From assembly GCA_003159495.1 (NCBI GenBank), contig PLPI01000041.1:26224-58544 (forward strand): a stretch of 32,321 nt of DNA, read 5' to 3'. The translations under genes and the position numbers were made by a program. Positions within the stretch are counted from its first letter, which is position 1, and every line of letters begins with the position of its first letter. Under the pieces are notes generated by a model. That model had not been told where the DNA came from and did not search any database. It was given only the letters and a program-made list of their open reading frames with translations. Below, one piece after another: positions 5,469 through 10,942 of the stretch. Origin of the DNA: a candidate division FCPU426 bacterium (lineage in GTDB: Bacteria; Oederibacteriota; PGYV01; Palsa-1178).

Positions 5469-6671
5469 TTAAAGTATATTTAATCCGATTCCTTTTAAGT
5501 AATCATAAGTGGAATCATAATAATCTGCTTTTCTGGTTCTATCATAGCTATCTCCTTCTGGTACTACTATAACCATGCCTTGCCTTGCACGTGTGAGAAG
5601 AACTCGATAAGCGTTTTTTAAATACATTTTACGTTCAGCTTTATTTATATTATTCCACCTGTCGCCACAAAAAGACATGTGCTGCCATCCTTTATCTGTA
5701 TATCGAAAATCTGCGTCCCATGTAACACAAGCCCAATCAAGTTCCAAGCCCTGTACATGGAACTCTGTTGCTACATCTTCAAGATAATAGGACGAACGCA
5801 CGTCTTCTTTGCCATCGAGAAACCAATGAATAGGATCCATAGGACTTTTTACATCTATTGCGTGAGGTTTTAATCTTTGCGCTTGAGATGATACTACTAT
5901 TCCATATCTTTCAGTTCCTCTAGCCTGCAATCTAAGCCATTTTTTTGCTCTACTTAAATCTCTCGTCAAGACTATAGGATATTTATCTTTAAGTTTATTA
6001 TATGTTTCTTTTGCTTCCTTCTCCCTTAAATCAAGCATTTGTTTGACTAATAAAGATAAATTTTCAGCCCTAAAAGATCTCATCGATACTGCCAAGTGTA
6101 ATTCTTGATTGTAAAAAACATTTTTTCTTTTCTTTATTTCATTAAGCAATTCCTCTGTCCCATATTCAGAATCATGTAGTTTAGGTGATATATATATACG
6201 CCAGTCTGGAAATGACTTATTTAAGGCACGCACCCATTCAGAAATACCTGCTTCTCCAGTATTAATCTCCTGTCCACCACCAACAAGACAAACTATGACG
6301 GCCCAATCCTTATGTCTATCCATACATGATATAAGAAACTCCGGTTCAGATTGGTTGAAACCTTCATTTAGCGCTTCAACAAAAAAAAACGGCAGTTTAT
6401 TCTCTTCAACATACAGACATCTAATTGCTTGTATCAGGCAATAGTGGCTGTGCTCCCTCAAGTTTTTGTGATATAACAGGGCCCTGGCTGTATGAAACAT
6501 TGAATAATACAATTGCACCATTGTCCACTTAAAATCATTGTCATTAAATGTCTTTTCCGCCCTTTTTAAATCTAATTCTGCTGCCTGAAGCTCCGCAGGC
6601 GCTATTTCTTTTCCCCTCGAAAACTCCCTTATTCTACCCTTTTTCAGACACTCCCCGTACTCTGTGTTCAT
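5469..6671 (-). CDS. HEPN domain fused to the C-terminal half of a DUF2075-type helicase (chimera)
   Basis: The 400-residue frame joins two unrelated parts. Residues 1-103 are a HEPN domain of the kind paired with MNT nucleotidyltransferases ([25 protein letters not shown], with a candidate R-x4-H at Arg63/His68). From about residue 104 the sequence becomes the post-Walker-B part of a DUF2075/Schlafen-like superfamily-1 helicase: [21 protein letters not shown], then [15 protein letters not shown], a motif-V-like [10 protein letters not shown] (303-312) and a motif-VI-like [12 protein letters not shown] (354-365). Walker A and the Walker B DEAQ-type motif are absent, and the usual HEPN C-terminus is missing, so ATP hydrolysis is unlikely. 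The start is ATG 6671, with GGAGG just upstream, overlapping the MNT gene by 38 bases. It is best read as an in-frame deletion or recombination product, or a misassembly, centred near 6360. Confidence 0.8.
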
Positions 6672-7212
6672 CCCTCTCCTCCCACAGTATTACCCCTCTT
6701 TCAACCTCGCGCGCGTATAAAGCTTCCTTTTGTTTAAAACCCGCCGTTTCAACCGGCGTTTTTATGACTGCCTGAATTTTTCGTTTTAGTTTTATTTTTT
6801 TCAGGATTTCCCTTACCCTGTCAGGGTCATGGGATATTATAAAAATATCCATATCACTATCGGCCATATCTTCGCCCCTTGCGCAACTGCCATAAAGGGT
6901 TGCGGATATCATATGCCTGCAAAGCTTTTCAACTGTGCCATTTAATTCAACAATATTCATCATAATTTTAAACTGTTTTACAGCCGGATTTGATGCGTCG
7001 GCCGAATATATTCCAGTATTTCCCCTAATTTCGTTTTTTACAAAACCTTCCTTTATAAGCTGTTTCATTGCAAGAAAAACTCCGGCCCGGCTTATTCCAA
7101 GTGCTTTTTGAACCGCGCTGCCTGTAAAATCCCTGCCGCTGTTTTCACAAAGATATTTCAGGGTTTTCAGCGCGTTTGTGCCTTCAAGCAAATTTACAGC
7201 CTTTATTGACAT
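6634..7212 (-). CDS. MNT-type nucleotidyltransferase antitoxin with N-terminal winged HTH
   Basis: The 192-residue protein combines a winged helix-turn-helix (about residues 14-70, [29 protein letters not shown]) with a minimal nucleotidyltransferase domain. The latter shows the hallmark [19 protein letters not shown] at 106-124; Asp120 and Asp122 are the expected metal ligands. MNT proteins of this class neutralise a HEPN toxin, in characterised MntA-HepT pairs by adenylylating it. The next gene begins with exactly such a HEPN domain and overlaps it by 38 bases, giving a classical bicistronic pair. The HTH suggests that the antitoxin also binds the phased repeats over its own promoter at 7223-7277. 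Confidence 0.9.
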
Positions 7213-7222
7213 GCTCCACCTT

Positions 7223-7277
7223 GTTTAATATATTTAACACATGTTTATTATATTAAACTATTGTTTAATTGTCAAAC
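7223..7277 (-). promoter_or_regulatory. MNT-HEPN promoter with three phased operator repeats
   Basis: The minus strand carries an exact consensus sigma-70 promoter: TTGACA (7270-7275), a 17-base spacer and TATAAT (7247-7252). Three imperfect palindromes sit over it at exactly 20-base intervals: GTTTAATATATTTAAC (7223-7238), GTTTATTATATTAAAC (7243-7258) and GTTTAATTGTCAAAC (7263-7277). The 20-base period is about two helical turns, placing bound proteins on the same DNA face. Autoregulation by the HTH-MNT protein is the likely use. Confidence 0.85.
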
Positions 7278-7783: not shown

Positions 7784-8842
7784 TTACTTTTTTTTATATC
7801 TCACTCCCCGTCCCGTTCCTATCCTCTCAATAAGCCCTAACATCTCCAGTCTTTTCAGCGCCTGTGCCGCGCTTATGGACGGGATATTCAGTTCTTTTAC
7901 AACATCGGCGTTCTTTATCACATCATACTTCCCGAAAAGTCCCAGTATTAATCCCTGCCTTTCCGATATCATTTTTTCCGGCGCTGTGCCGCCCGCTATT
8001 TTCTCAACTATCCCGGCCTGTTCCCCGAGCACTTCAGTAAAAAAGTTTACAAACATCGAGGCGTCACATTTTTCAGTTTTCCTGAATTTTTGACCTTCAC
8101 GCAGGGCAATATAATACCGTTCCTTATTATCCTCTATTATCTTTTCATGTGACGCGTACTTAACAAAGGTATAGCCCTGTTTTAGCAAAAGAAGGTTTGT
8201 CAGTATCCTGCTTAACCTTCCGTTTCCGTCCTGAAAAGGATGAATGGCAAGAAACTCAAGTATGAAATTGGCAATTACCGGAACAGGATGGAATATTCCG
8301 GCCTTAAGCGTTTCATCCGCCCATTCTATAGCCGCTTTCATTTCAATAGGGGCGAGATATGGTTCGGTGGGGCTAAATACCACAGACCTCTCGCCTGTCA
8401 TGTTATTTATGGCCTCGACTATATTAGGCTGGTTTTTGTATTTTCCCCTGTGATGCCCGTCTTTGTCCGAAAATTCCAGGGTCATTTTATGCAGATGAAG
8501 GATTGAATTCTCGGAAAATTTAATATCTTTGTAATTATCAAATACGCTTTTTATGGTTTCCCCGTATCCCGCGACTTCCTGGGAATCCCGGTCTTTGAGC
8601 TTTGTCACCTTAAGCCCGCCCAGCAGTTTTTTTACCCCCTCATCGGACATTTGGGAGCCTTCTATCCTGGTTGAAGCGCCGGTGGAGGTTACCAGCACAT
8701 TTTGTTTAAGCCTGTTTATTACCTGCGCCCCGGCTTTTATGCCCATATCAACAATTCCCCGGACACGGTCAATATGGTCAAGTCTGGCTTTAAGGCCGGC
8801 CTGTTTTACCCTTAAAAGCCTTGCCGTCAAATATTCTTTCAT
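7784..8842 (-). CDS. Fic family protein (AMP-transferase) with N-terminal inhibitory motif and C-terminal winged helix
   Basis: The 352-residue protein has the full Fic core HPFQDGNGRLSR at residues 201-212, with the catalytic His and the anion-binding GNGR loop. The N-terminal segment has STRIEG (57-62), matching the (S/T)xxxE(G/N) autoinhibitory motif of class II Fic proteins, in which the Glu blocks productive ATP binding. The last 60 residues (LGLFGKYDVIKNADVVKELNIPSISAAQALKRLEMLGLI) form a winged helix, so the protein can probably bind DNA. Fic enzymes usually AMPylate Tyr, Ser or Thr hydroxyls on target proteins; the target here is unknown. GGAGG precedes the ATG. Its promoter is overlapped by three 10-base repeats that may be its own operator. 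Confidence 0.93.
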   Translation of the reverse strand: MKEYLTARLLRVKQAGLKARLDHIDRVRGIVDMGIKAGAQVINRLKQNVLVTSTGASTRIEGSQMSDEGVKKLLGGLKVTKLKDRDSQEVAGYGETIKSVFDNYKDIKFSENSILHLHKMTLEFSDKDGHHRGKYKNQPNIVEAINNMTGERSVVFSPTEPYLAPIEMKAAIEWADETLKAGIFHPVPVIANFILEFLAIHPFQDGNGRLSRILTNLLLLKQGYTFVKYASHEKIIEDNKERYYIALREGQKFRKTEKCDASMFVNFFTEVLGEQAGIVEKIAGGTAPEKMISERQGLILGLFGKYDVIKNADVVKELNIPSISAAQALKRLEMLGLIERIGTGRGVRYKKK

Positions 8843-10284: not shown

Positions 10285-10584
10285 TTATGACAGTTTAATT
10301 ACGAGTTTTTTACCCATTCCCTGTGCCACCTTAAATAATGTTTTTATGGTGGCGTTTGCGTCGCCTTTTTCAAGCCTTGAAATTTCCTGCTGCTTTAATC
10401 CCGCCTTTTGCGCGAGAACCTTCTGGGTAAAATGAATCTTAAGCCGTTCCTCCTGCAGTGTTTCAGCCATAGCGTACATCATCTTTTCAGTGTTGTATGC
10501 TTTTCTGTATTCGGCGTTTTTAGCGTGTTGCCCGACCCTGTTTTTATATATACTATAATCAATAGTAATTTTCTCTTTTTTCAT
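10285..10584 (-). CDS. higA: HigA-type XRE antitoxin
   Basis: The 99-residue protein has a Cro/C1-type helix-turn-helix at about residues 53-75 (FTQKVLAQKAGLKQQEISRLEKG). It ends with the hydrophobic strand KLVIKLS typical of HigA-like antitoxins. It begins one base after the stop of the RelE/HigB-like toxin gene, and its AAGGAG ribosome site lies inside the end of the toxin gene. The order toxin first, antitoxin second is the HigBA arrangement. The antitoxin binds the toxin and represses the shared promoter, which carries a 22-bp palindrome. Confidence 0.88.
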   Translation of the reverse strand: MKKEKITIDYSIYKNRVGQHAKNAEYRKAYNTEKMMYAMAETLQEERLKIHFTQKVLAQKAGLKQQEISRLEKGDANATIKTLFKVAQGMGKKLVIKLS

Positions 10585-10585
10585 C

Positions 10586-10942
10586 TTACATCTCCTTTTT
10601 GTCCGTAATACTAATTACTTTTTTCATTATTAAAACCGCCTTATCAATATCTTTTTGTTTAAAATCTTTTTTATCAACAGCATGCACAAATACCGCGCTT
10701 TTCCCGTGCCAAAAATAGAACAGCCTGTATTCTTCAGTATTTATGCCCGGCCTTAATTCCCATATCTTATCCCTTAGATATGCGGCATATGGCCGTTTAA
10801 GTTTCGGCCCCTTTTCCTCCAACAACGCCATTAAAAAATAAATTTTACCTTTTCCTGCGTGATTTTTTGATTCAATAAATTTATCAACAGGACATCTGCT
10901 GCCGATCCAGTAAAATGCAATTTTATAACTATAACGCATCAT
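10586..10942 (-). CDS. higB: HigB/RelE-superfamily mRNA-interferase toxin
   Basis: The 118-residue protein fits the HigB/Gp49-like branch of the RelE superfamily. Key features are KRPYAAYLRDKIWELRPGINTEEYRLFYFW in the middle and FVHAVDKKDFKQKDIDKAV near the end, with the basic residues used for mRNA contact. Such toxins cleave mRNA at the ribosome and are held inactive by the adjacent antitoxin. GAGGGG precedes the first of two consecutive ATG codons. The gene is the promoter-proximal member of a two-gene module and its frame is intact. Confidence 0.88.
   Translation of the reverse strand: MMRYSYKIAFYWIGSRCPVDKFIESKNHAGKGKIYFLMALLEEKGPKLKRPYAAYLRDKIWELRPGINTEEYRLFYFWHGKSAVFVHAVDKKDFKQKDIDKAVLIMKKVISITDKKEM

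Follow-up and report, generated by a model that had tools for sequence, protein, structure and literature searches.

What reads the repeated palindromes that cover the promoter of an HTH-MNT gene in this genome, and do they form the operator of a self-regulating toxin-antitoxin operon? The gene lies in a 32,321-nt stretch of DNA (the window), which is part of a 62.6-kb contig in a 3.05-Mb draft genome. An initial annotation of the window had proposed that a perfect consensus promoter drives an MNT-HEPN pair and is held by a repressor bound at three palindromes with an exact period of 20 bp. The analysis described here argues for two such sites. The region is very probably the autoregulatory operator-promoter of the HTH-MNT antitoxin operon, at which adjacent HTH-MNT dimers would repress their own synthesis.

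The HTH-MNT gene (6634-7212, minus strand) encodes a protein of 192 residues, comprising an N-terminal winged helix (approximately residues 1-72), a linker helix (76-100) and a C-terminal minimal nucleotidyltransferase (101-178). The N-terminal winged helix that had been claimed for the MNT antitoxin is borne out both by domain matches and by an AlphaFold2 model (mean pLDDT 91), in which the winged helix, the long linker helix and the MNT fold are all seen. The protein scores above the cut-off for Pfam Polbeta and NTP_transf_2, and it has the MNT motifs expected of type VII (HepT-MntA) systems, GS at 108-109 and SDxD at 119-122, which are invariant in set A1. Against the NCBIfam MntA equivalog NF047752 it reaches 36.9 bits, below the curated cut-off of 60. 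The PADLOC profile PDC-M05A matches residues 7-177, most of the protein, with an E value of 1.4e-16, which makes the protein a member of that profile. Searches by sequence and by fold found no solved structure for full-length HTH-MNT, the matches being to separate winged helices or to separate MNT proteins.

The promoter of this gene had been described as having both hexamers at consensus with a 17-base spacer, and this description is accurate: TTGACA (7275-7270) and TATAAT (7252-7247), both on the minus strand and 17 nt apart, agree with the sigma-70 consensus at 12 of 12 positions. Such a promoter is no rarity in the host genome, as a pattern search of the 3.05 Mb returned 41 exact TTGACA-N17-TATAAT sites and none for the reversed control. 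Within the HTH-MNT family, 37 of 60 promoters score 11 or 12 of 12. A probable ribosome-binding site, recognised by its sequence (AAGGTGGAG, 7214-7222, minus strand), is situated 1 nt ahead of the HTH-MNT ATG. A divergent promoter-like match on the plus strand at 7206 was set aside; it runs into the beginning of the HTH-MNT gene, and there is no gene that it could drive.

Two putative operators are superimposed on this promoter and the leader that follows it. Operator A, a 16-bp palindrome at 7243-7258 (minus strand, GTTTAATATAATAAAC), begins 6 nt before TATAAT and spans the -10 hexamer, an overlap of operator and promoter core of the kind expected in an autoregulated toxin-antitoxin operon. 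Operator B, a second 16-bp palindrome at 7223-7238 (minus strand, GTTAAATATATTAAAC), is located between the transcription start and the ribosome-binding site, which it abuts. The two are 20 bp apart from start to start, with a linker of 4 bp (ATGT, read from A to B). Compared pairwise, their four 5-base arms are identical at 27 of 30 positions, a level of agreement reached in 0 of 2000 dinucleotide shuffles of the same region. The two-site arrangement is real and strongly non-random, and the proposal of an exact 20-bp period thus holds for the palindromes beginning at 7223 and 7243; it does not extend to the one at 7263, considered below. Because 20 bp corresponds to 1.9 turns at 10.5 bp per turn, placement of the two sites on the same face of the DNA is approximate. 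Across all 3.05 Mb of the genome, GTTWAATATAWTWAAC is matched with zero mismatches at sites A and B only. Furthermore, a genome-wide search with this pattern for a regulon revealed no second exact operator, and no further 20-bp pair among the matches with 0-2 mismatches. As the exact operator is found nowhere else in the genome, its target looks local.

Comparison with homologous HTH-MNT promoters, which the initial annotation had suggested as a check, revealed the same phased repeats and showed the 20-bp twin layout to be family-wide. Relatives were gathered by protein similarity alone, with the promoter disregarded; a single-protein query returned no related loci from genome or viral contigs, and an alignment query recovered them. 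In a non-redundant set of 36 sequences less than 65% identical to each other, with the spacing left free over 16-30 bp, matched twin palindromes were present in 25, and 22 of those 25 pairs were spaced by exactly 20 bp, whereas shuffles, with every spacing counted, averaged 1.0 of 36. As a control, 152 regions upstream of other genes at the same loci were scored, and 4 of them reached the same level; three of these belong to duplicate HTH-MNT genes and the fourth is spaced by 26 bp. A separate, strict count of palindromes gave 8 pairs at 20.0 bp, where 0.08 were expected, and none at 20.5 or 21.0. Among more distant HTH-MNT genes, which had not been used in defining the pattern, 13 of 19 have twin palindromes at 20-22 bp (shuffle null, 0.08). 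Counts restricted to a range of spacings were left out of this evidence. In most relatives, as here, the start of site A precedes the -10 hexamer by 6 nt, while L010, L017, L066, L074 and L098 fit the layout imperfectly or need a different promoter call.

Some relatives depart from the common arrangement in other respects. An operator abuts or enters the HTH-MNT start codon in L076, L015, L018 and L096, where bound protein could thus extend over the beginning of the coding region as well. In L006/L044 (G034 contig 173) and L045 (G001 contig 56) the HTH-MNT genes are broken by stops or a frame change; the 20-bp twin palindromes of L045 are still recognisable in spite of the broken gene.

Whether a third dimer is bound over the -35 box and acts with the other two, as had been proposed in the three-site model, depends on a 15-nt element of doubtful status at 7263-7277 (minus strand, GTTTGACAATTAAAC). 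Exactly 20 bp separate the inner arm of this element (GTTTA, 7263) from the arm at 7243, and the element's 9 of 10 half-site match in register (+/-1) has a p value of 0.003 for this promoter alone, calculated with TTGACA held fixed and with local base composition. However, the element is an imperfect palindrome of 15 nt rather than 16, its centre is 19.5 bp from that of its neighbour and so misses the 20-bp register by half a base, and the -35 hexamer supplies most of its distal arm. An upstream third element was found at the corresponding position in none of the 53 other family promoters (1 of 54 overall), and chance alone would give about 0.16 such matches across the set. Third palindromes do occur in L004, L005, L014, L038, L070 and L076, but 20-21 bp downstream of B. 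A third palindrome that is both in register and conserved was therefore not found here; joint action of a dimer over the -35 box with those at A and B appears unlikely, and the upstream element probably lies outside the core operator.

Evidence as to which protein reads the sites comes from the half-sites themselves, the letters of which vary by lineage (GTTTA, GTCTA, GTATA, GACTA, GTTCA, GCTCA, GTTTC and others). Half-site distance is correlated with distance in the recognition helix (residues 41-50) with an r of 0.72, and with a partial r of 0.63 given the MNT domain (0 of 1000 permutations, which ignore phylogeny). The correlation with the helix is 0.56 in 30 non-redundant rows, and that between half-site distance and the wing is 0.10. 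At the level of single positions, and over 54 cases, the pairing of A or S at residue 44 with C at half-site position 4 holds in 51 and that of Tyr46-Leu47 with A at position 3 in 53. Each trait undergoes 4-6 changes on a tree built from the MNT domain only. Registers for this test were called with a promoter term, except that those of L070, L076 and L080 were assigned by inspection; unclear cases were excluded. A test of phylogenetically independent pairs had too few well-supported pairs. Because the permutations ignore the tree and few pairs are supported, the evidence is strong, but stops short of proof, that half-sites track the recognition helix rather than the wing or the MNT domain.

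Two additional HTH-MNT genes are found in the same genome. One of them (L002, 1410-2450 on contig 99) is followed by a HEPN-like ORF and has twin palindromes, GTAAATTTTATGTTAC and GTAATATAAAGTTTAC, that are 20 bp apart; the other (L003, about 1440-2085 on contig 27) likewise has twin palindromes, ATAACATTTATGTTAT and ATAACAAATATGTTAT, at 20 bp. Both paralogues also match PADLOC PDC-M05A over most of their length. The three genes of this one genome have a common layout and three different half-sites. The different arms of the paralogues, together with the lack of any other exact operator in the genome, suggest that no HTH-MNT protein reads any promoter but its own.

The twin palindromes might be read in other ways. 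Their surroundings are AT-rich and -10 boxes are partly self-complementary, features from which palindromes could arise by chance; against this, none of the 2000 shuffles reproduced the arrangement here, exact 20-bp spacing in 22 of 36 relatives compares with 1 of 36 at any spacing in shuffles, the distant set gave 13 of 19 against 0.08, and many half-sites contain G or C (GCTCA, GTATGC, GTACTC). A chance origin is thus exceedingly improbable. A second possibility is that the palindromes are real but serve a regulator other than HTH-MNT, their predicted reader; the lone MNT antitoxin of Shewanella, in which no HTH is recognisable, works through dissimilar palindromes (PMC4621449). This is very unlikely in view of the covariation of half-sites with the recognition helix of HTH-MNT, which the rest of the protein does not share, the travel of the layout with the HTH-MNT gene across many phyla and the occurrence of three different half-sites at the three HTH-MNT genes of one genome.

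The definition of the dimer unit invites a further alternative, in which the inner pair TAAAC-N4-GTTTA, spanning both palindromes, is bound by the dimer and the outer arms are auxiliary half-sites. The linker between the palindromes is nearly always 4 bp, with the inner arms forming an inverted repeat across it, and L021 and L024, which have slightly longer palindromes, keep the 4-bp gap. Nevertheless, taken singly, A is better conserved as a palindrome than B, with half-site agreement of 4.20 and 4.14 versus 3.94 and 3.98, and the inner pair is a distinctly unlikely binding unit. One HTH-MNT dimer on each 16-bp palindrome is preferred.

According to this preferred reading, two HTH-MNT dimers would be bound side by side on the two 16-bp palindromes, with 4 bp between them. 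The dimer on A would cover the -10 box and block RNA polymerase, while the dimer on B would cover the initial transcribed bases as far as the ribosome-binding site. With a period of 20 bp, or about two helical turns, both dimers would be placed nearly on one face of the DNA, where they could touch and help each other. A fall in free HTH-MNT would release the full-strength consensus promoter, and antitoxin would be made first. We infer such binding and repression from the features described above; cooperativity, a steep response and modulation of binding by HEPN may also be part of the mechanism. The near-constant 20-bp period across otherwise dissimilar sequences suggests contact between neighbouring dimers. 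However, positive and negative cooperativity are both known for AbiEi and Rv2827c, and spacing alone therefore gives no ground to assume that binding is cooperative.

A broader proposal is plausible but tentative. Winged-helix MNT antitoxins may share one operator grammar, consisting of a palindrome over the -10 hexamer, a 4-bp gap, a second palindrome and sometimes a third, within which the half-site alphabet would diversify along with a few residues of the recognition helix. Several modules could then coexist without cross-repression. Neighbouring dimers might be bridged by the MNT or HEPN domains, which would couple the level of toxin to repression.

The second gene of the operon qualifies its description as an MNT-HEPN pair. 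Its ORF (6671-5469, minus strand) overlaps the HTH-MNT ORF (7212-6634), with the antitoxin gene upstream of the toxin gene. A HEPN-type partner does adjoin HTH-MNT, as annotated, but it is no normal HEPN toxin. The product is an in-frame chimera that begins with ~104 residues of HEPN and continues, beyond a join near 6359, as half of a Schlafen-group-3 (DUF2075-type) helicase. This is the C-terminal half, and it shares 76% identity with residues 363-658 of the 658-residue protein L113. The HEPN domain is matched only to position 67 of the 117 in its profile, and thus falls short of the complete HEPN toxin of a type VII system; the conserved C-terminal part of HEPN (LREDADYYxRWS...) has been lost from the gene. 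A HEPN gene is immediately downstream of HTH-MNT in 58 of 60 core relatives, where it is free-standing and encodes 140-160 residues when complete. The HEPN-helicase join may reflect a genuine gene fusion, decay of the toxin or a join made in assembly, three possibilities that look alike in the sequence, and the partner toxin gene may be defective. Because the partner is a chimera, the system may be decaying even with an intact operator, and the claim of a working toxin-antitoxin pair is weakened; the operator claim is unaffected. Elsewhere in the neighbourhood are a Fic-family gene with a C-terminal winged helix (7784-8842, minus strand; PADLOC SoFic) and a Gp49-like/HTH_3 toxin-antitoxin-like pair (10285-10942, minus strand), both within 4 kb, so that the region is rich in such genes.

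The literature searched contained no description of a 20-bp twin operator geometry for HTH-MNT genes and no use of the terms HTH-MNT or wHTH-MNT. The present results indicate a large, phylum-crossing branch in which an MNT protein has its own DNA reader, the geometry of the operator is conserved and the code that links protein to DNA can be read. They offer a route to predicting the operators of uncharacterised HTH-MNT genes, to testing the mutual insulation of modules residing in one genome, and to studying how a nucleotidyltransferase antitoxin senses its toxin.

The system described here resembles known systems in part. MarR/ArsR-type repressors, namely MepR, HlyU and ZitR, are among the closest solved folds to the HTH-MNT winged helix, and winged-helix repressors of this type bind palindromes of about 16-bp operator size. 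PDC-M05A is a PADLOC profile of candidate defence genes, and no mechanism was found for it. In the foundational survey of MNT-HEPN systems, the putative antitoxin was judged unlikely to be a transcription regulator (PMC2701414); HEPN was taken as the antitoxin there because MNT was assumed to be the toxin. The only characterised MNT promoter that was found is that of Shewanella oneidensis SO_3166/SO_3165 (HepT-MntA, type VII), where the MNT antitoxin is an autorepressor that binds its promoter, which has palindromes near -10 and -35 (PMC4621449). The gene order is the same in both systems, with MNT first and HEPN second. In contrast, the Shewanella MNT protein lacks an HTH domain and its two palindromes are dissimilar, whereas the MNT of the present gene carries a fused winged helix and its near-identical palindromes are set 20 bp apart. 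In the type IV systems AbiEi/AbiEii and Rv2827c, a wHTH-containing antitoxin controls its own expression from repeated operators that overlap the promoter, and its cooperativity can be positive or negative (PMC7319586). In AbiEi and Rv2827c, the antitoxin is the HTH protein and the toxin is the nucleotidyltransferase, while here the HTH is fused to the nucleotidyltransferase. Their operators are 23-bp inverted repeats with gaps of 3 or 13 bp that are bound by monomers, in contrast to the 16-bp palindromes and 4-bp gaps seen here.
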